Positions 10,343 to 33,197 of a stretch of DNA of 64,000 bases are shown in pieces. The DNA is from Candidatus Berkiella aquae (lineage in GTDB: Bacteria > Pseudomonadota > Gammaproteobacteria > Berkiellales > Berkiellaceae): contig NZ_LKAJ02000003.1 in the NCBI RefSeq assembly GCF_001431295.2, positions 1 through 64,000 of the forward strand. The letters are read 5' to 3'. A model generated the notes under the pieces. The model was not told the DNA's origin, did no database searches, and worked only from the letters and a program-made list of their open reading frames with translations. The translations under genes were made by a program, and so were the position numbers. Position 1 is the first letter of the stretch; every line of letters starts with the position of its first letter.

Positions 10343-12955
10343 CTATCCTCTTTCTTGAGAATCATCAAATGATCTTTGACCAATATGCTGAGAAGGACAA
10401 TCCAGGCTAGTTGCAGCTTTGTCAAAAGAAACCATCCTGGTTTTTTCTTGCCCATTAACAAAGCAATTAAAAATTTTGCCTTCTTTATCTAAATGTATGC
10501 TAACTTGCTTACCCAGGTGGTTCTCAAAATCATGGCTCATTGCAACAAGTTTAGTCTGATTCTTCTTCCCTACACTAAGCATCTTGCGATTATCACTTAA
10601 GTTTACCATCCCCTGTACGATCCCTTTGACTTGTTCAAAGGCTCGAGCAAAAGAGAATACTCTATCAGGAAATTGCTTGTTCAATTGTTTTATTTCTAGC
10701 CTTTCTCTAGCCAACTGTTGCTCTGAAATTTTTAGCTTATTTAAACTGGCCTCACGCATGTTTCTAGGCTCAATCCATCTTGCCTGAGCAAAATCCACTG
10801 CCATTGATTTCGATCGCTCACGACTCAGCGTTTTGTACAGCACTTCTTCATTTTTAAAATCCTTGTGATGTGCAAACAAAGCCAAACTTTCTCGATGTCG
10901 CGTGCACGCGACATAGGTTAAATGCCGATCAAAATGTTTCGATGCCAACACATAAGTCTTATCAACTGTTACACCCTGCGCTTTATGGATTGTTGCTGCA
11001 TACCCATGATCCAGATTTTGATAGCTTCGAATATCGAAATTGACACATTTATTATCTTTGGATTCTAACTTAATGTTAAATTGGTGTTTGCCAATTGATT
11101 CAATTGTACCCAACGAACCATTCTTAACCCCAAGGGTCTTATCATTTTTGAGAAAATAGACTTTATCTCCTATCGCAAAATGTCGTTCACCCTTTGCTAC
11201 TGTAAAGCTCTCCCCTCTCTCGATTTCGCCCGCAGCAATTCGCACCTCCCTAGCCTGCTCATTGAGCGATTTAACGCTCTCATTGGTATAAGCCAACATC
11301 AGTTGCGATTTGCCCTCAAGTCGATCTGCTGCCCAGGCTTCTAACATTAATCGTTCTGCAACCTTTTCATCTACCGCATGGCTATGGATTGCGCCCATAG
11401 CTTTATATCGCTCTAAGGCTTTTGTTGTGTTCCCTGTTGCAAATTCATAGGTTGCTTTACGCATTTCAGGGGAATGCTGCCGCATCACATCTGTTAAAGA
11501 AGCTTGCCCAAATCTTTCAGCCAGCGCTCTTGACGGCGCACCTGCTTCAATTGCCCCTAGTTGCTCCGTATCATGAACCAGAATAACCTTAGCACCAGTA
11601 TCATTTGCATAACGCAATATCCTCTCAAGCTTTTGTGTACCTAACATGCCTGCTTCATCAATCACCAAGATATCTTGCTTTGTTAGCCCTTCCCTAACCT
11701 GTTCCCATTGCAGTAACCGTGAATCCACCGTCATGCTGGGGATCCCTGCCCCCTCTTGTAGGCCTTGAGCTGCTATCCCACTTAAACATATCCCCGAAAC
11801 CTTACATCCTGATCCTTCAAAAGCTTCTTTTACAGCCCCCATTAAGTAACTCTTACCAGTTCCCGCCAAACCAGAAACGATTTTTAAATCACCCGCATTG
11901 ATAACATGAGAAAAGGCCTGTCGTTGAGATTCACTTAAGGATTTGCCACTCAACGCTTGGTTTGCAGCCTTTAGATCAACTTGATGTGCTCTTTTAGCAT
12001 CTAGCTCATAAGCTTGGTTAATCATTTCATGCTCAAGTGTAATCATTTTGATGGTGCTATAAACCGTTTTTCCATACTCATTTTCACCCAAAGTCACAAT
12101 TTGCTTTGAGCTTTTAATAGCGGATAAAACATCTTGGTACTGATTTAAATCAGCACTATATTGATTTGCTAGTTTTGCAATATCGTAATCATTAAATACG
12201 GCTTGTTGCTGGGTGAGTTTTTCAATTGCCGAAGATGGATCTTTGATTAAACGCTCCCCATTAGCACGAATGATTTCGATATGATCAACATATTTGCCAA
12301 AATCATCCCCTTCCCCCCTGCTCATGGCATGGTGAGGCGCTTGGCCAAGATGGAGTCCTGGCTCTAAATCAATACCGCGTTCTTGCAAGCTACGGCAATC
12401 AATTCTGGTGGTATGTCCTGCTAAATGTAGATGAGCATTAGCTACGTCTTGCCAAAATCGGCGCTGCTCAAATACGTTTTCTCGTTTATTCCAATCTCGG
12501 TTTTTTAAACCAAAGCCTTTAGCGTTGACTTCTCGCATGGTAAGCAGAATATGGGCATGGGGGTTTTCAGGATTGTCTTCATGGATATTGATATCGGCAA
12601 TCATCCCTTTGCTAACAAACTGCTTATCGCAATACTCACGGATTAAATCTACTCGTTCATCTTGAGATAACTCTTTGGGCAAAGCAATTAGTACCTCTCT
12701 TGCCAATTGTGAATCTTTTCTTTTTTCTGTGGCTTCTACCTCATTCCAAAGACGCTTACGATCCTTAACCCATTCCGGCGCATTTAGCGGCGCCATGATT
12801 TCTGAATACACTACCCCTTTCTTGTTTGAGTAGTCATATTCAACCCCCAACCGCTCATCTAATAAACGCTCACCCGCCCTATAGGCTGCTGCCCCTACGG
12901 CAGAGCGCCCTTGTGATCGCGAGATAGTTTTAACATCAAGATGAAAGATAGCCAT
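10343..12955 (-). CDS. traA: Ti-type conjugative relaxase/helicase TraA (MobA/MobL plus RecD-like)
   Basis: A 870-residue relaxase that should nick one strand at oriT, stay bound to its 5' end and unwind the plasmid for transfer. The N-terminal MobA/MobL (MobQ class) domain has the three-His metal motif HEDNPENPHAH (about 125-135), with conserved Tyr residues near AAYRAGE. The C-terminal RecD/TraI-like helicase has Walker A GLAGTGKS (about 362-369), Walker B LVIDEAGML (about 430) and a late YAATIHKAQG motif. The frame runs to 12976, but ATG 12955 is preceded by AAGGA at 5 nt and starts with the conserved MAIFHLD, so it is chosen. It is divergent from the accessory genes and TraD. A related, truncated copy lies at 54428-55893. 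Confidence 0.93.
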   Translation of the reverse strand: MAIFHLDVKTISRSQGRSAVGAAAYRAGERLLDERLGVEYDYSNKKGVVYSEIMAPLNAPEWVKDRKRLWNEVEATEKRKDSQLAREVLIALPKELSQDERVDLIREYCDKQFVSKGMIADINIHEDNPENPHAHILLTMREVNAKGFGLKNRDWNKRENVFEQRRFWQDVANAHLHLAGHTTRIDCRSLQERGIDLEPGLHLGQAPHHAMSRGEGDDFGKYVDHIEIIRANGERLIKDPSSAIEKLTQQQAVFNDYDIAKLANQYSADLNQYQDVLSAIKSSKQIVTLGENEYGKTVYSTIKMITLEHEMINQAYELDAKRAHQVDLKAANQALSGKSLSESQRQAFSHVINAGDLKIVSGLAGTGKSYLMGAVKEAFEGSGCKVSGICLSGIAAQGLQEGAGIPSMTVDSRLLQWEQVREGLTKQDILVIDEAGMLGTQKLERILRYANDTGAKVILVHDTEQLGAIEAGAPSRALAERFGQASLTDVMRQHSPEMRKATYEFATGNTTKALERYKAMGAIHSHAVDEKVAERLMLEAWAADRLEGKSQLMLAYTNESVKSLNEQAREVRIAAGEIERGESFTVAKGERHFAIGDKVYFLKNDKTLGVKNGSLGTIESIGKHQFNIKLESKDNKCVNFDIRSYQNLDHGYAATIHKAQGVTVDKTYVLASKHFDRHLTYVACTRHRESLALFAHHKDFKNEEVLYKTLSRERSKSMAVDFAQARWIEPRNMREASLNKLKISEQQLARERLEIKQLNKQFPDRVFSFARAFEQVKGIVQGMVNLSDNRKMLSVGKKNQTKLVAMSHDFENHLGKQVSIHLDKEGKIFNCFVNGQEKTRMVSFDKAATSLDCPSQHIGQRSFDDSQERG

Positions 12956-13009
12956 ATCATTCCTTAAACTTGTCAAAGCACTCTAAAACATGCATCAAGT
13001 GTTTTGCAA

Positions 13010-13177: not shown

Positions 13178-13212
13178 TGAAAATTATGCTTATAAGCATA
13201 AGGATTTTCTTG
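13178..13212. promoter_or_regulatory. Palindromic operator/promoter block shared with the tra operon
   Basis: Contains the perfect 18-bp palindrome TTATGCTTATAAGCATAA (13184-13201), 70 bp before the accessory/TraD operon. The 35-bp block around it recurs at 32623-32657 with only two differences, one in the palindrome centre. Two copies upstream of the two halves of the transfer machinery indicate a shared transcriptional control site. The protein that binds is not known; the small Cro-like proteins encoded at 32380 and 32711 are candidates. Confidence 0.7.
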
Positions 13213-13271: not shown

Positions 13272-13562
13272 ATGTCGCAATCAACCCCCGAGCTAGAGGC
13301 ATTAATGAAAAAGCGCGCTCAGCTTGATGCACGAATTCAAAATCTCAAAGCAAAAGAAGCATCTCAACAACGAAAAGATGATACCAGGCGAAAGATATTA
13401 GTTGGCTCTTATATTCTCGATAAATACCAAAAGTCAGGCGCGATGGAAAAAATTATACAGGAGCTGGACAAGTTTTTATCTAAACCCAATGATCGCGCTT
13501 TATTTGGCCTCACTCCACATGACGAAAAAGCGCTCTACCAAACACAACCAGAAACAATTTAA
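13272..13562 (+). CDS. Relaxosome accessory protein, TraD(Ti)/MobC-like
   Basis: A 96-residue, highly charged, helical protein. The segment from about 10 to 45 predicts a coiled coil with many Lys/Gln. DDTRRKILVGSYIL (about 36-49) matches the core of the small Ti-plasmid TraD/TraC accessory proteins, which sit opposite the relaxase gene and help it at oriT. It is the first gene of the rightward operon with the T4CP, divergent from the relaxase across oriT, the same arrangement as in Ti plasmids. AAAGGA lies about 11 nt before the ATG. The family call rests on one motif and context. Confidence 0.65.
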   Translation: MSQSTPELEALMKKRAQLDARIQNLKAKEASQQRKDDTRRKILVGSYILDKYQKSGAMEKIIQELDKFLSKPNDRALFGLTPHDEKALYQTQPETI

Positions 13563-13570
13563 GGAATAGC

Positions 13571-13894
13571 ATGAGCTATATACTCGAAACTGTTGAGTTT
13601 GAACCTGAAATGAGAAAATGGCTCGAATGGTTTTGCCATGAGAATGAACTTCCCTTCTCCCAAGCCTTAAATCTTATTTTAGACATAGGTCGTCAAGTTG
13701 CTGAAAACGAAAAAACACCTTTCGAACTTCCAAAGGCGCAAAAATTAGTTATTCAATGTGTCATGGAATCTTTATTGATTTTAAGAGAAGCCTATTTACG
13801 AGAACCACAACAACGGCAAGCTATTAGTGAAAATGCTAAAGTAGCTATTCGTAAAACCTTAGGCAATCCAGAATCCGAATGTCTTTCTTCATAA
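13571..13894 (+). CDS. Hypothetical protein between relaxosome gene and TraD
   Basis: A 107-residue soluble acidic protein not recognised by name. It has several predicted helices (FEPEMRKWLEWFC, FSQALNLILDIGRQ, KLVIQCVMESLLILREA) and no signal or membrane segment. AAGGA lies 6 nt before the ATG; the gap to the previous gene is 8 nt, and its end overlaps the traD start by 16 nt. Position suggests a relaxosome or coupling-protein partner, such as an oriT-binding or TraM-like role, but no sequence evidence shows DNA binding. Confidence 0.6.
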   Translation: MSYILETVEFEPEMRKWLEWFCHENELPFSQALNLILDIGRQVAENEKTPFELPKAQKLVIQCVMESLLILREAYLREPQQRQAISENAKVAIRKTLGNPESECLSS

Positions 13895-15702
13895 ATTTTA
13901 CCCGTGGTGGGCAAGTACAGTTTCACGGCATATATCGATTCTGGCAAGTCTTTGTTCGCTTTTTTAAAATTGGTTTTTTTGTTTTTATCTTATCAACGGC
14001 TGTCATTTGGTATTCTAAAACTAAGCCATATGAATTGTATCTGCTAGCACAATGGGGGTATGCCACTCTCTTAAATGGCCCATGGGTGCATCCATCAAAA
14101 GCAACTCAGTTTCGTTATCCCAATGGACGCATTTATCGATTAATGCCAAAGCAAATATTGTCTCTACCAATTATAAAACGGCAAAAAATCCAAGCGCAAT
14201 CTCGACTTTTTTCTGCTCTTAAATTGGCAGGATCAATTTCAATGGCATTAAGCATCATAGCAGCCTACCTTTTTTCTCGTTATGGTGAACAAAAAAACCA
14301 ACAACAACCTCTTAGAGGAGCAACTTTTGCCACGCCAAATGAATTCAAACGCATTGTAAAGCGAGCAAAAAAAGCCTCCCCATGGATTTTGGGTGATGTC
14401 CCTCTACCCCTTGAGGCAGAAACCCAGCACATCTTGCTTTGTGGTTCACCAGGTGGTGGTAAATCCGTTTGTACCCATGAGCTTCTTACGCAAGTCAGAA
14501 AGGCTGGGCAAAAGGCATTGGTATATGACATTAAAGGCGCTTTTATTCCCCATTATTACCGACCTGGCAAAGATATTATTTTAAATCCATTAGATGAACG
14601 AAGCCCTTCTTGGAACTTATGGCAGGAATGCTCTTCTTTGACTGATTACGATGCAATAGCCGCTGCAATCGTACCCGATAGCTCAATTGGTGACACCTTT
14701 TGGTTAAAAGCAGCAAGAACACTTTTGTCAATTTCCGCTTCTCAATTTCAGCATAAACCTGATCCCAGAATGAAAGATTTAATTCATCATTTGTTTTGCA
14801 GCGATCTCAAAGAGGTTGAATCTCTTCTTGAGGGGACGCTCGGCCATGCCATGGTTGGAAAAGATTTAGAGAAAGGCACGCGTTCAGTCATATTAACGTT
14901 GGTAACTTACTGTAAATCACTTCTCTACTTACGCGATGAGCCAAAAACACCAGCCTTTTGCATTCGCGATTGGGTTAAAAATGAGGCAGATGATGCCTGG
15001 CTCTTCATAAGCTCAAACCAGCGCATGGCAGACGCCTTAAAACCGATTATTTCTTTGTGGCTTGAACTGGCAGTCAACTCCTTACTTAGCCTTGAAGAAG
15101 ATCGGAACCGTAGACTATGGTTTTTCTTTGATGAGCTGGCCAGCTTACAACGATTACCCAGTTTAGAGCCTATCCTTTCTCGTGGTCGCGGTTATGGCGC
15201 CTGCTTTGTAGGTGCCATTCAAGATATACATCAGTTAAAGGATTTATATGGCGATAAAGCAGCTGAAGTTTTGGTTTCGCTCTTTGGTACTTCCCTTTTC
15301 TTTTCAACCAATAACAACCATTCTGCAAAATGGGCTGCTGAACAACTTGGTAGATCTGAATTTTTAGAAGCTCGAGAAGGCTTCTCGCTGGGATCCCATA
15401 TGCGCGACGGGGTCACCCTTAATCATCAACGTCGGCAGGAATTACTTGTTATGGATTCTGAAATTCGACACCTTAAAAAACGAGAAGCATTTATGGTTAC
15501 TGCTGGAGGATGGCCCATCACAAAGCTAATATTTAATTTGAAAAAACGCCCATCATGGTACCCTGCTTTAATTGAGCGAGATCTTCGAGGTATTGCCCAA
15601 AAAATTTCACAGATAGATAATAACATGGAAGCAATAAGCAATGTTACCAATCAATCAAAAGCTGCTAATTTAGAAGAATCCGAGTCAATTGATTTGTTTT
15701 AG
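13879..15702 (+). CDS. traD: Type IV coupling protein TraD (VirD4-like ATPase)
   Basis: A 607-residue coupling protein that links the relaxosome to the secretion channel at the inner membrane. Two N-terminal membrane segments lie at about 27-45 and 112-132. The ATPase domain has Walker A LLCGSPGGGKS (about 186-196) and Walker B WFFFDELASL (about 414-423), followed by LSRGRGYG and a GAIQDIHQL segment typical of TraD/TraG ATPases. The C-terminus is short compared with F TraD (over 700 residues), so the F TraD tail that contacts TraM is missing. The start overlaps the previous gene. It is located with the relaxase, 17 kb from the rest of the F-type operon. Confidence 0.93.
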   Translation: MSFFINFTRGGQVQFHGIYRFWQVFVRFFKIGFFVFILSTAVIWYSKTKPYELYLLAQWGYATLLNGPWVHPSKATQFRYPNGRIYRLMPKQILSLPIIKRQKIQAQSRLFSALKLAGSISMALSIIAAYLFSRYGEQKNQQQPLRGATFATPNEFKRIVKRAKKASPWILGDVPLPLEAETQHILLCGSPGGGKSVCTHELLTQVRKAGQKALVYDIKGAFIPHYYRPGKDIILNPLDERSPSWNLWQECSSLTDYDAIAAAIVPDSSIGDTFWLKAARTLLSISASQFQHKPDPRMKDLIHHLFCSDLKEVESLLEGTLGHAMVGKDLEKGTRSVILTLVTYCKSLLYLRDEPKTPAFCIRDWVKNEADDAWLFISSNQRMADALKPIISLWLELAVNSLLSLEEDRNRRLWFFFDELASLQRLPSLEPILSRGRGYGACFVGAIQDIHQLKDLYGDKAAEVLVSLFGTSLFFSTNNNHSAKWAAEQLGRSEFLEAREGFSLGSHMRDGVTLNHQRRQELLVMDSEIRHLKKREAFMVTAGGWPITKLIFNLKKRPSWYPALIERDLRGIAQKISQIDNNMEAISNVTNQSKAANLEESESIDLF

Positions 15703-27517: not shown

Positions 27518-28270
27518 ATGAACTCTAGCAGTTTTGAGGAAAATGCGATCCTACCCAAACCTTTGCCTTCAGGTTTAATTCCTACATTAAATAAAATGGG
27601 TTATATGACCCAATTCTTAGATGAATACTCATTAAAGTTCATTGATCATCCAAATTCAGCAGATAAGCCTTTGTTAGAGATTGGGGCAGCTTTTGGTGTG
27701 GCAACTCTCGAAGCTCTAAAAAGGGGAGCAACGGTAATTGCAAACGATCTTGATCAAGAACATCTAAAGATTCTTAAAAATCTGTGCCCTGAGCAGTACA
27801 AATGTAATCTTATGCTGGCACCAGGGAAGTTTCCTGATGAAATTGATATTGAGAACGATTCAGTTTCAGCGATATTGATTTGTAGAGTGATCCACTTTTT
27901 TTCGCCAGAAGAAATAAAGGCAGCTTTTAAAAAACTTTTCGACCTATTAAAAAAGGGTGGCAGATTATTTTTAGTGGCTGACACACCTTTTCAAAAGAAT
28001 TGGGCTAAATTTCAACCAATCTATCTACAGAGAAAGAAAGAGGGTGCTGAATTTCCAGGTCTTGTTACAAATTCAGGTGAATATATAACCGATCTTGGTT
28101 TTAATTTGCCCAATATGCTTAATTTTATGGATCTAGATGTTTTACGAAGAGAGCTTCAAGAAGCTGGATTTGTTATTGAAAAATTAGAATTTATTAATAG
28201 AATAAACTATCCGGACACAGTGAGACTGGATGGAAGGGAAAGCGTAGGAACAATCGCCATTAAACCGTAG
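27518..28270 (+). CDS. SAM-dependent methyltransferase
   Basis: A 250-residue methyltransferase with motif I LLEIGAAFGVATLEAL, strand 2 TVIANDLDQEHL and post-motif LLKKGGRLFLVADTP. The first Gly position of motif I is more relaxed (G-A-A-F-G) than in the other methyltransferases here. It ends one base before the nominal frame of the MFS gene, whose ATG is 15 nt further on, and opens a three-gene unit with the permease and the autoinducer-binding-like protein. It may modify the molecule the permease moves; this is inference. Confidence 0.75.
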   Translation: MNSSSFEENAILPKPLPSGLIPTLNKMGYMTQFLDEYSLKFIDHPNSADKPLLEIGAAFGVATLEALKRGATVIANDLDQEHLKILKNLCPEQYKCNLMLAPGKFPDEIDIENDSVSAILICRVIHFFSPEEIKAAFKKLFDLLKKGGRLFLVADTPFQKNWAKFQPIYLQRKKEGAEFPGLVTNSGEYITDLGFNLPNMLNFMDLDVLRRELQEAGFVIEKLEFINRINYPDTVRLDGRESVGTIAIKP

Positions 28271-28285
28271 TTGAGGTTTAGAAGT

Positions 28286-29584
28286 ATGGTAGAAAAACAA
28301 AGGGAAAGGTTACTCGGGCCTATTCTTGGCTGCAGTTTAGGCACTTATCTAGAATTTTTAGATTTCGCGCTTTATGCATCTTTAGCACCAATCTTTGCTT
28401 TAAAATTCTTTCCAAAAGAATCTCATGACATTTCAATTGTTTATTCTTGGGCAATATTTGCAATAAGCTTCATAGCAAGGCCGATTTCAGGCTTTATATT
28501 GGGTCCGTTAGGGGACAAAATCGGCATAAAAAAGGTAATGATATTCTCATTGGCATTAATGGGGATATCAACCGCCGCAATAGGACTTATCCCAACGTAT
28601 GAACATATAGGCGTTTATGCACCTCTAATGCTCATTTTCTTAAGAATTCTGCAAGGTTTTGCAGTTAGCATTGAGTATAACAGTCTTGGGGTTTATCTAT
28701 TAAATCGGAAAGATGTCAAAAACAGTTTTGGGTACTATTCAAGCTTTACCTCCGTTGGGGTAATAGCGGGTTTGATTTCTGGTGGCCTCATTGTCGCGTT
28801 ATGTTTGCCTAGATCAGCTATAGAAAATGTTTCAGATTGGCAATGGCGCGTCCCATTTATAATATGTGGAATTTTCGTTAGTTTTGTAGGCATCTACTTG
28901 CGAAGAGGGATGTATAGCGATAATCGACCTAAAGAAAATGATCGCAGCAGGGTAATAGGTGGTCTTTTTAAATTCCAAGTGAAACATCTGCTGATGGGTG
29001 TCTTTGTGACGGGATTCATCAGTATTGCCGCCTATGTAGCGCTTGGCTATATGTCAAATTATTTACAGATACAACGTCAATATCCTATTAATGAGTCAAT
29101 CAAAATGTGTTGCGCTTGTGGTTTGGCGATGCTAGTTGCTGTTCCATTTGGTGGGTGGGTTTCCGATAAGATTGGCCGGATAAACTTTATGGTTTTTTCA
29201 TCTTCGCTAATGATTTTGGTATCGATCTTCTCTATTGCGCTCATTGCATATGCTCCAACTCCATTAATCGTTTTGGGCTTATTGATTTTATCAGCGCATA
29301 CCGGGTTTGCAGCAGGTGGGTTGCCAGCGTTTATTACAGAAATATTCTACCAAAACCATCGATATACCGGTTCAACGATTGCTTACAACTCAGGTGTTGC
29401 ATGGATTGGAGGAACGGCTCCGATGGTGCTTTCTTACCTATTTCTTAAGACTAATAATCCTTTAATTCCAGGTTTATATCTATCATTTTTCTCGCTTATA
29501 GCTTTATTTGCAGCTATATCTTTAAGATCTCAGCCCAATATAAATGGGTATGCCCAAACTATTCAAGAGCCTTCATTTCTTTAA
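28286..29584 (+). CDS. MFS transporter, metabolite:H+ symporter (ProP/ShiA-like)
   Basis: A 432-residue major facilitator protein with about 12 membrane segments. The N-terminal LGTYLEFLDFALY and the loop FIARPISGFILGPLGDKIGIKK match the metabolite:H+ symporter family (ProP, KgtP, ShiA); RILQGFAVSIEYN is the TM4 region. The second half repeats the loop signature as GGWVSDKIGR. The frame opens at TTG 28271, but ATG 28286 with GAGG 8 nt upstream is the start. It probably takes up a small organic solute across the inner membrane. Confidence 0.85.
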   Translation: MVEKQRERLLGPILGCSLGTYLEFLDFALYASLAPIFALKFFPKESHDISIVYSWAIFAISFIARPISGFILGPLGDKIGIKKVMIFSLALMGISTAAIGLIPTYEHIGVYAPLMLIFLRILQGFAVSIEYNSLGVYLLNRKDVKNSFGYYSSFTSVGVIAGLISGGLIVALCLPRSAIENVSDWQWRVPFIICGIFVSFVGIYLRRGMYSDNRPKENDRSRVIGGLFKFQVKHLLMGVFVTGFISIAAYVALGYMSNYLQIQRQYPINESIKMCCACGLAMLVAVPFGGWVSDKIGRINFMVFSSSLMILVSIFSIALIAYAPTPLIVLGLLILSAHTGFAAGGLPAFITEIFYQNHRYTGSTIAYNSGVAWIGGTAPMVLSYLFLKTNNPLIPGLYLSFFSLIALFAAISLRSQPNINGYAQTIQEPSFL

Positions 29585-29598
29585 AGGAGTAGTAAAAC

Positions 29599-30099
29599 AT
29601 GACGTTACAAGAGGCAAGTTTAATATATAAAAAAGTAGTCGATGAAGACTTTGATAGAGAGATGATTGCACTTAAAGAAAGGTATTTAAGTAAAATATAT
29701 TGTAATTATATGTTTTTTTGCATTGAAGATAGTCAGACCGGTAAACGCAGAGCATATAGCTCAAATCCTGATTGGCAGCGCTCATTTATAGATTATAACT
29801 TAATTAATAAGTGTGCTTTATATGCAGCCACGGTAAATTTTCCAAAAGAATCTGGGATTGATAAGTTCATGTTTTTATGGAAACAAATTCCTAACCAAGG
29901 TAAAGCTCAAAAAGAGGTAGCCGGAATACGAGCAGAACATGGTATTGGAAATGGGCTAAGTATCACAAAAGTGATGGGTGGCAAACAATTCATGCTGGGA
30001 TTGGGAACAGATCCAAAAGATCACGAATTAGAGCACAAGTATCAAATTGCTTTGCCTACCATCATGACAATGTTTAAAGAGGCATGTTACTTGTCGTAG
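29599..30099 (+). CDS. Stand-alone autoinducer-binding-like (LuxR N-terminal) protein
   Basis: A 166-residue protein whose pattern resembles the LuxR-family signal-binding domain: a YSSNPDWQRSFIDYNLINKC segment (W-x4-Y-like, then the residue before the next strand), FLWKQIPN, RAEHGIGNGLSITKVMGGKQF and a LGLGTDP strand. No HTH follows; the gene ends where the linker would begin. It could be a ligand sensor that works by binding another protein, or a relic. AAAGGAG lies before the ATG, 14 nt after the permease stop, so the three genes form an operon. Confidence 0.55.
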   Translation: MTLQEASLIYKKVVDEDFDREMIALKERYLSKIYCNYMFFCIEDSQTGKRRAYSSNPDWQRSFIDYNLINKCALYAATVNFPKESGIDKFMFLWKQIPNQGKAQKEVAGIRAEHGIGNGLSITKVMGGKQFMLGLGTDPKDHELEHKYQIALPTIMTMFKEACYLS

Positions 30100-30129
30100 C
30101 GCATATTTAATTAGATGGCGTAGAAAGGA

Positions 30130-30801
30130 TCAAGATGAGTGATTCTTTCGATGCCATACAATTGGTGCGACCCATTTAAGCGCAATATCAATTTTTGTGG
30201 AATTCAAAGCTCTTGTCTGTGGATTAGTGCAGTGTAATGAAAATGTTTTAGGCTTTTTACCTGGAATGACTTTCCTAACAAGGAGATCCTTGCTTGCTGT
30301 CTCGACAATACAGTATTGATCGACAGCTTTAGTCATCTCTTTGCCAAATTTTTTGATACCACCTACAAAGTCACCTAATCCAAATACTGGAGCAAGTCCA
30401 TCGTCGGTAATCATAACGACAATTGAATCAGGGTTAATCTCTTCAAAAAATTTGATTTCACTTTGAATGGCTAGTTGTTGGCTCCAAGGTGAAGCACCTT
30501 TTCTATTTTTAGGAGAATCTTTAGGTAGGTCTAGATAATGTGGGCCTTCTCCAGTGCCTTCCATAAGCCATTCAACAGAGCATCCAATTCCCTCATTTAA
30601 TAAGGCTTTAACCAGCCTATGTGCGCCCTTTAGCGTTAATCCTTGGTTTTTAAGCGTACCAGGTCGCTCCCATCCTCGTAGTGTTGAAAGGGGGATATCG
30701 TGCCTTGTATCCATTTGCTGTAATGAAACACCTGCAAATTTCCGAGCGCTTCGAACACGTTTAGCTCTCTCGAGCATATCAAGGGTAACAACTTTTTCCA
30801 T
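30130..30801 (-). CDS. HTH repressor with S24/LexA-like C-terminal domain lacking the catalytic Ser
   Basis: A protein of about 223 residues. The N-terminal XRE-type HTH spans ARKFAGVSLQQM to IPLSTLRGWERP. The C-terminal part has the CI/LexA peptidase fold: DDGLAPVFGLGDFVGG in place of S-M-x-P-x-x-x-x-GD, and a kept Lys region DLLVRKVIPG. With Asp-Gly where the nucleophile Ser stands, self-cleavage is unlikely. ATG 30813 is another start, but ATG 30801 has AGG before it. It is divergent from the tra regulatory genes, and a palindrome on their promoter is its likely operator. Confidence 0.72.
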   Translation of the reverse strand: MEKVVTLDMLERAKRVRSARKFAGVSLQQMDTRHDIPLSTLRGWERPGTLKNQGLTLKGAHRLVKALLNEGIGCSVEWLMEGTGEGPHYLDLPKDSPKNRKGASPWSQQLAIQSEIKFFEEINPDSIVVMITDDGLAPVFGLGDFVGGIKKFGKEMTKAVDQYCIVETASKDLLVRKVIPGKKPKTFSLHCTNPQTRALNSTKIDIALKWVAPIVWHRKNHSS

Positions 30802-30894
30802 GTGCCTATGCATAACTTTTTAGATGATCAGCGTGCAATTGTACTACTAAACACACCAAGACAAAATAAGTTAGAAAGAATAATACATCTGTTT

Positions 30895-30932
30895 TTGACA
30901 ATTTGCATAAATACAACATAATGTGTTGTATT
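30895..30932 (+). promoter_or_regulatory. Promoter with overlapping palindromic operator, start of tra regulatory region
   Basis: TTGACA (30895-30900), a 16-bp spacer and CATAAT (30917-30922) form a near-consensus sigma-70 promoter directed rightward. AATACAACA and TGTTGTATT (30910-30918 and 30924-30932) form a perfect 9-bp inverted repeat over the -10 box. A repressor bound there would block RNA polymerase. The divergent S24-like repressor gene is adjacent. Confidence 0.68.
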
Positions 30933-31004: not shown

Positions 31005-31217
31005 ATGAAGCAGTTTAAATTTTGCCCTAGATTTGAGCCAAAGAGGGGATTGTCACGATCTTCTAAAGTCGGTAATCTTATAGCGTGCTTACAAGGTAGT
31101 TCACACCTTGCAAGCACTTACCAAAATTTAACCTACGACAGAGGTCAAAAAATGGCTACGACAATTCTAATCGATCTATTTTCAGTTATAAACCTCCCAT
31201 ATCTTTTGCAGACATAA
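31005..31217 (+). CDS. Doubtful small ORF in the leader region
   Basis: A possible 70-residue product with an ATG and a weak GGGA upstream. It is not recognised, and its codons pass straight through a 13-bp hairpin (31085-31117). It could be a leader peptide or not a gene at all. The segment between the promoter and the winged-helix gene holds nothing else of note. Confidence 0.2.
   Translation: MKQFKFCPRFEPKRGLSRSSKVGNLIACLQGSSHLASTYQNLTYDRGQKMATTILIDLFSVINLPYLLQT
31085..31117 (+). repeat. Hairpin in the leader before the winged-helix gene
   Basis: GTGCTTACAAGGT and ACCTTGCAAGCAC pair at 12 of 13 positions across a 7-nt loop. It lies about 165 nt past the operator-covered promoter in the presumed transcript. 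It could be an attenuator or RNA-processing site, or a DNA-level binding site. No T-run follows. Confidence 0.5.
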
Positions 31218-31272: not shown

Positions 31273-32379
31273 ATGATTGAGAACGCTGCTGCGTGCATCA
31301 TTCTGCAAGCACGCCAATCTAAACATTACGTCACGTTTACGGACAAAGAATTTGAATTTGTATCAAGCCATCCTGCGTTAAGCGCTAATGAAAAATTGAT
31401 TTGGTTTAATTTGGTTCGCAAGAGCTTAAGAGATCCTAATTTGTCGTGCGCAATAACACATCAGCAAATAGCGATGATGATAGGGATTAAGCAAGATACT
31501 GCCTACAGGGCAGTGAAGAGGCTTAAACAGTTTGGCTTTCTACAGGCACAGTTTGATGCTGAGTTACAAATTACAACCTATGCCATCACGTTACCGGATG
31601 AAGGGCTTGAGGCGATAACGAATGCGCCTAATCGTGGGTTCGGAAAAAAATCCGATACCCCTCCGGATAAAAATCCGGCACCCCCCGGAAAAAAATCCGG
31701 TACCCCCCCGGATAAAAATCCGATCCTATTAATAAATAATAATATAAATAATAAACATAATATTCATAATCAACCGCAGGCTCAGCAAGCAATTGTGAAT
31801 GATGCTGACGCATTGGTTTGTGAATTTGAAAGCTTACAAAAAGAATTTCAGAATTTCTCTCTTGCTGAGAGAGTTCGACGAATCAATGGACATTTCACTG
31901 CTGAGCAAATGCATATCATTCACGCTCGAATTAATGCGAAGCAGAAGTGCATTGAAATTGAAGAAAATCAACGAAATGAGAAGCCAGCAATATCTGCGCA
32001 GCCATTAGAGAAATCAAAGCTTATTGACTTTGAATTCGAAGGTTTGCAGTTTTTGATTGAGGAAAAAGTCAAGGACAAAATTATCCACGTGATCCCACTT
32101 CTGCATCAACGCAAAAAAATTAAAGGGGATGCAGCCAACAAAACCTTAAGCTCGATAATGAAGGAGGTGTTGTTTTATGTTACTAAGGCTGGAAGCTTGA
32201 CAGACAAGCCTGTGATTCAACTGAAGCGATACCATATTGCTTGTAAGATTTTGCAAAAAGGTCAATGGGAGTGTCCTAGAGGGATAGTGCGGGAAGAGGG
32301 CGCTAAACGTGAAGCATTATGGCAAACAAGCAAAAAAAGAGAAATGGCAGGAAGCTTAGGAATGGCGGAGGGAAAATAG
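31273..32379 (+). CDS. Winged-helix replication- or regulation-type protein
   Basis: A 368-residue protein. Residues about 25-105 hold a winged helix (LSANEKLIWFNLV, then ITHQQIAMMIGIKQDTAYRA, KQFGFLQ), as in plasmid and phage DNA-binding proteins. A Pro/Lys-rich linker follows (about 128-155) in which a block with SDTPPDKNP is duplicated at DNA level. The C-terminal 220 residues are mixed helical, with no known domain. The frame opens at TTG 31243, but AGAGGG before ATG 31273 sets the start. It is first in the regulatory cassette driven by the operator-covered promoter. Replication or control of transfer are both possible. Confidence 0.6.
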   Translation: MIENAAACIILQARQSKHYVTFTDKEFEFVSSHPALSANEKLIWFNLVRKSLRDPNLSCAITHQQIAMMIGIKQDTAYRAVKRLKQFGFLQAQFDAELQITTYAITLPDEGLEAITNAPNRGFGKKSDTPPDKNPAPPGKKSGTPPDKNPILLINNNINNKHNIHNQPQAQQAIVNDADALVCEFESLQKEFQNFSLAERVRRINGHFTAEQMHIIHARINAKQKCIEIEENQRNEKPAISAQPLEKSKLIDFEFEGLQFLIEEKVKDKIIHVIPLLHQRKKIKGDAANKTLSSIMKEVLFYVTKAGSLTDKPVIQLKRYHIACKILQKGQWECPRGIVREEGAKREALWQTSKKREMAGSLGMAEGK

Positions 32380-32613
32380 ATGGACATAAAATCACAACTT
32401 GATTTGAAATCCATGATTAGAAGTTTGTGCAAAGCGGGATTATCACAGGAAGCAATAGCATTAGCAGTTGAGGTCAACCAATCAACTATAAGCCGGATTT
32501 TATCAGGTAAATACCAGAATTCGAATTTTAAACTGGCGATGGGGATCCATATGCTATATTTGCAACATTGCCAATCAATACCTGGCACATCAAGTGTCTA
32601 CAACGCTCTTTAG
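32380..32613 (+). CDS. Small Cro-like HTH protein
   Basis: A 77-residue protein that is almost only a helix-turn-helix: LCKAGLSQEAIALAVEVNQ, STISRILSGKYQNSNF. Its ATG follows the TAG of the previous gene directly, so translation is coupled. It is paralogous to the 65-residue protein at 32711 (shared L-x3-G-x5-IA-x2-V-x3-QSTI-x-RI-x2-G). The 35-bp palindromic block lies right after its stop, before the second paralogue, making the two products the leading candidates for binding that site. Confidence 0.7.
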   Translation: MDIKSQLDLKSMIRSLCKAGLSQEAIALAVEVNQSTISRILSGKYQNSNFKLAMGIHMLYLQHCQSIPGTSSVYNAL

Positions 32614-32622
32614 AAGTCTATC

Positions 32623-32657
32623 TGAAAATTATGCTTAAAAGCATAAGGAATTTCTTG
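32623..32657. promoter_or_regulatory. Second copy of the 35-bp palindromic block, before the pilin/tra operon
   Basis: TTATGCTTAAAAGCATAA (32629-32646) with flanks matches the block at 13178-13212 at 33 of 35 positions. It lies about 50 bp before the small Cro-like gene that heads the pilin/tra operon. Shared placement before both transfer operons supports a common operator. Confidence 0.7.
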
Positions 32658-32710
32658 AAGTCATTGATCGCTACTTGCAATAATGGAAATACATTGCAAG
32701 GGAGTGAATT

Positions 32711-32908
32711 ATGCATCCACAAAAATATATCTATGCTTTGTTGAATAATGGCTTTACTGAGCATTGGATAGCAAAAAAAGTCAAATTAGCACAATCCACT
32801 ATTCATCGAATTAAGGTGGGTGATGTTCGATCACCTCGATTCGATACGGTAGAAAAAATTAAAAAACTATATGAAAAACAATTAGAAACTGGTTCCAGCA
32901 ATGCTTAA
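32711..32908 (+). CDS. Small Cro-like HTH protein heading the tra operon
   Basis: A 65-residue HTH protein: LLNNGFTEHWIAKKVKLAQ then STIHRIKVGDVRSPRF. It has a GGGAG Shine-Dalgarno and sits 17 nt before the pilin gene, so it is probably transcribed with it and could repress or activate its own operon via the palindrome just upstream. It is the paralogue of the 77-residue protein at 32380; the recognition helix is conserved (QSTI-x-RI), which suggests both read a similar DNA site. Confidence 0.7.
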   Translation: MHPQKYIYALLNNGFTEHWIAKKVKLAQSTIHRIKVGDVRSPRFDTVEKIKKLYEKQLETGSSNA

Positions 32909-32924
32909 TGGTTCAGGAGTAATT

Positions 32925-33197
32925 ATGAAAAAGATTTCAATGTTTGCGATAGGGGCATTAACAGCCTTAGTGTTTGTTGATTGTTTTGCTGGCACGAGCG
33001 TTTCAGAGGCACTTAATCCGGTTAAAAAAGAGATCAACGATATGGTTGATTTTGGGCTAGTCATTGTATGGTTGGTAGGTGTATTTTGGGGTGTGGCTTG
33101 GAAAGGGTTCTTTCAATCCAACATTTTTGCAGCGGCCATTGGAATTATTATTCCTAGTATCTGTACAGCATTGGCGTTGATTCATAAGTTTGCTTGA
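32925..33197 (+). CDS. F-type pilin precursor TraA
   Basis: A 90-residue protein with a signal-like N-terminus (MKKISMFAIGALTALVFVD...), followed by a mature part of about 65 residues with two hydrophobic segments (VDFGLVIVWLVGVFWGVAW and IFAAAIGIIIPSICTALAL), the layout of TraA/VirB2 pilins. The frame extends to 32901, but AGGAG 6 nt before ATG 32925 marks the start. It opens the F-type assembly operon and directly precedes traL, as traA does in F. The symbol is left empty because traA is used here for the relaxase. Confidence 0.75.
   Translation: MKKISMFAIGALTALVFVDCFAGTSVSEALNPVKKEINDMVDFGLVIVWLVGVFWGVAWKGFFQSNIFAAAIGIIIPSICTALALIHKFA

Follow-up and report, generated by a model that had tools for sequence, protein, structure and literature searches.

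The pilus operon of a conjugative plasmid of Candidatus Berkiella aquae begins behind a promoter that is bracketed by the genes of two small paralogous Cro-like HTH proteins, here called HtA and HtB, and the same palindromic box precedes this operon and the relaxosome/coupling operon. The pair and its paralogy, a conserved gene order, the two promoters with their shared box and a further palindrome over the promoter of an upstream control operon can all be read from the DNA. They define candidate operators for two operons and a testable conjugation circuit in a poorly studied bacterial group.

The analysed window, 64 kb in length, is part of contig C3 (102,572 bp) in a genome of 3.59 Mb that also comprises a 3.41-Mb contig (the chromosome) and a 71-kb contig, C2, which represents a second plasmid. 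C3 carries an F pilus operon of the TraL/TraC/TraG type, which begins at ~32.7 kb, and, between 10.3 and 15.7 kb, a relaxase gene that is divergent from two small accessory genes and the gene of a coupling protein. The following genes are central to the analysis:

10343–12976, minus strand: Ti-type TraA/MobQ relaxase, divergent from the Dtr operon
13272–15702, plus strand: Dtr operon, two small accessory proteins and a coupling protein (TrwB/TraD type)
31273–32379, plus strand: winged-HTH protein resembling replication-initiation/DnaD-like proteins, with orthologues in all four elements compared
32380–32613, plus strand: HtA, 77 aa, Cro-like HTH, proposed activator
32711–32908, plus strand: HtB, 65 aa, Cro-like HTH, opens the tra operon, proposed feedback regulator
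32901–33197, plus strand: pilin-like small membrane ORF, followed by TraL (33204), TraE, TraK, TraB, TraV and TraC (ORF list, Pfam)

The ORF list and Pfam confirmed the two HTH genes of 77 and 65 codons reported in the first-pass annotation, as well as their placement, with HtA ending the control operon and HtB starting the tra operon. This pair is kept in all four of the divergent conjugative elements compared, which belong to a single bacterial family, namely C3, C2, G001:C11 and G006:C32, the last of which stems from another genus; near copies of C3 are also present in G001 and G003. The proteins of the four elements are only ~35–50% identical, and all of them show the order winged-HTH gene, HtA, promoter gap, HtB, pilin-like ORF, TraL/E/K/B. 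The winged-HTH stop codon and the HtA start are immediately adjacent in three of the four (the exception being G006), and the two genes are probably cotranscribed. The spacing between HtA and HtB ranges from ~97 to 156 nt and is 97 nt on C3, where the HtB gene overlaps the pilin-like ORF.

HtA matched the Pfam family HTH_3 above the gathering score (E = 4e-6), HtB below it (E = 1.5e-3), and both matched the phage regulator family phrog_6831 (E = 9e-15 and 4e-13, respectively). An HTH_3-type sequence extends over the domain in both proteins, as in the small XRE/Cro-C1 HTH regulators of PHROG 6831. Their AlphaFold models (mean pLDDT 81 and 87) have a helical Cro-like fold, and the fold matches included the 434 Cro/repressor, SinR and C proteins, all with E > 0.01 and high probability; both models can be described as Cro/C-protein-like HTH folds. 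The top PDB sequence matches of HtA, designed pentatricopeptide proteins, were dismissed as spurious, with ~25 residues matched. As targets of the two proteins, the sequence offers candidate palindromic operators only.

The pattern QSTI-x-RI, which the first-pass annotation had pointed out in both proteins, does occur in each of them but lies near the general HTH_3 consensus and varies in the orthologues (SQPTISRI, SQSTVNRI, NKSTISRI, SQGSVHKI). It was therefore set aside as evidence of paralogy, which was tested separately by genome search and tree calculation. When HtB was used as query against the whole host genome, nothing was obtained apart from the HtA and HtB genes on both plasmids and one weak chromosomal match (E = 0.02). 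The tree, which comprised 15 relatives, placed the HtB proteins in a supported clade (97/96) separate from HtA and from unpaired chromosomal relatives, which clustered with HtA. Judged by these sequence comparisons, HtA and HtB are true paralogues beyond their common generic HTH motif, and the separate HtB clade together with the genome search suggests that the duplication probably predates the split of the plasmids. Searches for relatives further afield yielded one weak match for each protein among annotated plasmids, only half-length HTH matches among phages, and scattered HTH genes in a class-wide set of 369 genomes, with tra genes recognised in none of the three loci inspected.

A shared site of the form TTATGC-N6-GCATAA-GGNATTTCTTG lies upstream of the pilus operon (32629–32657) and of the relaxosome/coupling operon (13184–13212):

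32629–32646, no strand: conserved candidate operator TTATGCTTAAAAGCATAA; the box continues as GGAATTTCTTG to 32657, into the -35
32655–32684, plus strand: HtB/tra promoter, TTGAAG-N18-AATAAT, with TG before the -10
13184–13212, plus strand: second box copy, upstream of the relaxosome/coupling operon

In the 3.59-Mb genome, the strict 18-bp palindrome has exact matches only at the two C3 sites, and exact matches to the full box occur only at the four tra promoters of C3 and C2 (two each). The box was found at both operons in 5/5 element copies whose promoters were both readable, including those in G001 (two elements) and G003, and is located 79–88 nt before the first start codon. Among six promoters from three elements, conservation did not extend beyond a 30-nt block that ends in the -35. 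The element of G006, which has the most diverged HtA, carries a diverged operator (TTATTC-N6-GAATAA). For the window taken alone, two palindrome matches are not extraordinary, as many with at most one mismatch having been obtained in 8 of 100 shuffles; the case for the box rests on position and cross-element conservation. Good boxes (two mismatches or fewer) were restricted to five of 14 genomes of the family, all of which have HtA/HtB relatives, and were detected in 0/8 genomes without such relatives, but since all five belong to one genus this co-occurrence is confounded by descent. Given its position and conservation, we regard the TTATGC-N6-GCATAA box as a genuine shared site at both tra operons. 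On C2 (L007 17234–17652), a third box precedes an ORF of 105 aa with a double-glycine-type leader, bacteriocin-like by eye, for which neither a Pfam match nor a credible NCBIfam match was obtained.

A different site, a CTTGCAA palindrome present in two copies (31088–31114 and 32674–32700; ~70% alike), had been proposed in the first-pass annotation as the common operator of HtA and HtB:

31085–31117, plus strand: palindrome copy 1, leader hairpin, kept in four elements with paired changes, not at a promoter
32674–32700, no strand: palindrome copy 2, overlapping -10/+1 of the HtB/tra promoter, candidate autoregulatory operator

Copy 2 is indeed flanked by the HtA and HtB genes, but a role of the palindrome as shared operator was rejected, and taken as a family the two copies do not recur across the elements. 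Copy 1 lies within a transcribed leader common to the four elements, ~160 nt downstream of a strong promoter (30895–30922), and the sequence of copy 2 differs in every other element, where different inverted repeats occupy its place. In the copy 1 hairpin, AA/TT pairs are replaced by GG/CC between elements and the loop differs in length by one or two bases, a pattern more in keeping with an RNA structure than with an operator bound by a dimer. Copy 2 may nevertheless be an operator, though not a conserved one. The palindrome was also considered as oriT and dropped, as oriT is expected between the relaxase gene and the Dtr operon.

The region upstream of the winged-HTH gene has the layout of a repressor-controlled early operon:

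30130–30813, minus strand: CI-like repressor gene, coding for an N-terminal HTH and a C-terminal domain that is S24/LexA-like by eye; divergent from the control operon
30895–30922, plus strand: strong sigma-70 promoter of the control operon, TTGACA-N16-CATAAT, 11/12
30913–30929, no strand: palindrome ACAACA-N5-TGTTGT, overlapping the -10 of the control promoter
31005–31217, plus strand: transcribed leader; contains a small conserved ORF, of which the last part is best conserved

The palindrome over the control -10 and the divergent repressor gene fit a CI-like repressor that acts on the HtA-encoding operon, and ACAACA-N5-TGTTGT is its probable operator. It recurs at the equivalent place on C2 (L006 13670–13686) and in the copy of C3 found in G001, whereas none of the unrelated loci fetched has it. 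The CI-like protein has an orthologue on C2 (63% identical), no Pfam match and weak matches to phage-repressor profiles (E = 3e-4). The last part of the small leader ORF, M-A-x-x-ILIDLFSVINL, has its own RBS near 31143 and precedes the winged-HTH gene; the leader hairpin is followed by a short helix that flanks the RBS and by this mini-ORF, an arrangement that might serve translational control.

The cassette to which the CI-like repressor gene belongs (27518–30813) recurs on C2 and also encodes a methyltransferase, an MFS transporter and a LuxR-like autoinducer-binding-domain protein (29599–30099) that is devoid of an HTH. Aquicella and Piscirickettsia plasmids have related parts beside their F-type tra genes, namely an autoinducer-binding protein encoded next to the repressor, as well as a thioesterase and an SDR. 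The cassette may let a chemical signal control transfer. A similar layout with a different adjoining cargo gene, in which a CI-like repressor gene is divergent from two small HTH genes, was found in another family (L152, G082:C32).

These elements can be combined into one circuit, which we favour tentatively and with slightly less than even confidence in the whole. The CI-like repressor would hold down the operon consisting of leader, winged-HTH gene and HtA via ACAACA-N5-TGTTGT. Once repression is lifted, HtA would be made and would bind TTATGC-N6-GCATAA-GG-N-ATTTCTTG immediately ahead of the -35 in both operons, so that the pilus (HtB-tra) and the relaxosome/coupling operons would be activated jointly. 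HtB, which the pilus operon encodes first, would then damp or reset the circuit, probably via the palindrome over its own -10. The direction of regulation, the assignment of each protein to its site and the feedback by HtB are what we infer beyond the arrangement itself. HtA, which is made by the upstream operon, is the simplest candidate for the protein binding the box; the unpaired relatives elsewhere group with it, and the location of the box upstream of the -35 fits activation. However, the palindrome centre at about -52.5 relative to the HtB/tra promoter is not a classic activator position, which counts against activation by HtA, and the weak profile support for the CI-like protein counts against the circuit. 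As the sequence of copy 2 is not conserved, the target of HtB is the weakest step. The two-protein switch envisaged in the first-pass annotation thus stands as far as the conserved paralogous pair is concerned and is plausible with a better operator, whereas the operator originally named was wrong and the roles of the two proteins are inferred.

The same parts could work with opposite roles, HtA and/or HtB repressing tra at the box until HtA is lost or the paralogues compete, an explanation that we consider rather unlikely. Most small single-domain Cro-like proteins are repressors, Cro, HigA, Aca11 and SinR are among the fold matches, and the recognition helices of HtA and HtB are related and could compete for one site. 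Yet the box is situated upstream of the -35 and not over the core promoter, and HtA, as product of an operon apparently shut by the CI-like repressor, would be missing under the very conditions in which tra should be silent.

It is unlikely, too, that the box is bound by a regulator of the host, such as one of type IV pili or competence, while HtA and HtB act elsewhere, for instance only at palindrome copy 2 or the control operon. Close variants of the full box do precede a pilV-type minor pilin gene and other genes in G001, G002 and G003, but the host's own chromosome is without a good box, the box is missing at the host pilVW locus and in G004 and G005, and each of the three genomes with a pilV box also carries an unpaired HtA relative. 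Such a relative is absent from the host and from G005, which have no box at the pilV promoter, and present in G004, where the pilV box is likewise absent; the sample is small and the pattern confounded by descent. The chromosomal boxes in question lie upstream of pilV/pilW-type minor pilin genes (L070, L043, L096). Joint action of HtA and HtB on tandem sites in the HtB promoter, as heterodimer or as dual activator/repressor in the manner of a restriction-modification (RM) controller, is highly improbable. It is favoured by the two sites flanking one promoter and by structural similarity to C.AhdI, C.EcoT38I, C.Esp1396I and C.Kpn2I; against it stand the presence of two diverged proteins, unlike C proteins, the unconserved sequence of the second site and the failure to find a counterpart at the Dtr promoter that is conserved across elements.

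Returning to activation by HtA, an extended form of the circuit, in which an activator copy and a feedback copy coordinate both operons via one box and chromosomal cousins of the activator run type IV pilus genes through the same box, is unlikely. If it were true, a single regulatory signal and code would serve both the transfer of the plasmid and the pili of the host itself. Directly after the unpaired HtA relatives of three genomes (L032, L033, L034) lie similar ORFs of 83–88 aa, some with a GG motif; those tested gave no family match. On G003:C10 (L140, L141), six box-like sites within 21 kb, one of them adjoining a REP-type transposase-like gene, share a longer repeat and are weak support for the box; they are perhaps a dispersed repeat or a local regulon.

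The transfer machines of SXT/R391 and of the IncA/C plasmids are F-like, and the F plasmid itself encodes regulators of the FinOP/TraJ/TraY/TraM system immediately before traA, an architecture in which, to our knowledge, nothing matches the HtA/HtB layout. The statement in the first-pass annotation that no comparable switch has been described for F-type systems was too strong. In SXT/R391, SetR controls an early operon whose products include a Cro-like protein and the activator SetCD, and IncA/C plasmids are controlled by Acr1, Acr2 and AcaCD (PMC4542580; PMC4207636). No description of an HtA/HtB-type pair was found in the literature searched, which mostly excluded subscription papers.

Other relatives in layout are cassettes of the Legionella lvr/CsrA type (L. 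anisa plasmid). They encode a distant homologue of the CI-like repressor, transcribed away from genes that lead into an F-type tra operon, but CsrA and other proteins take the place of HtA/HtB. Plasmids of Legionella and Aquicella have distant repressor homologues ahead of their F-type tra genes as well, and HtA/HtB were not seen between repressor and tra in the cassettes of Legionella, Aquicella and Piscirickettsia. The RM controllers C.Esp1396I and C.AhdI, which are among the nearest solved folds to the HtA/HtB models, are small Cro-like dimers able to activate as well as repress from palindromes that surround a single promoter. They differ in that each system has a single protein, related to HtA/HtB in sequence by the HTH fold only, and no restriction-modification genes are linked to HtA/HtB, whose neighbours are conjugation genes.

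Among the closest parallels is SXT/R391, where a CI-like repressor acts on an early promoter, the early operon encodes a Cro-like protein together with activators of the transfer operons (PMC4542580), and a common operator precedes several transfer operons, as the box does here at the Mpf and Dtr promoters. For the repressor, layout and the palindrome over the -10 fit this feature of SXT and IncC, whereas the protein profile match is weak. The IncA/C plasmids share with C3 a small single-domain HTH protein (the Ner-like Acr1) in the regulatory cluster, and have a master activator with a shared operator; however, Acr1 acts as a repressor of its own operon, AcaCD is FlhCD-like and Acr2 H-NS-like (PMC4207636), and a paralogous pair bracketing the tra promoter is absent there. 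The SXT/R391 activators are FlhCD-like SetCD and not Cro-like HTH proteins, and among the genes of the C3 cassette scanned with Pfam and NCBIfam no FlhCD-like heteromeric activator of the SetCD/AcaCD type was detected. Here the Cro-like proteins form a duplicated pair, one member of which is encoded inside the pilus operon. The control logic resembles that of SXT/IncC, with different components and unrelated activators. This suggests a transfer switch in which a duplicated Cro-like protein replaces the FlhCD-like activators of SXT and IncC, and hence a lambda-style control, known in outline from other mobile elements, that is built here from a different protein family.
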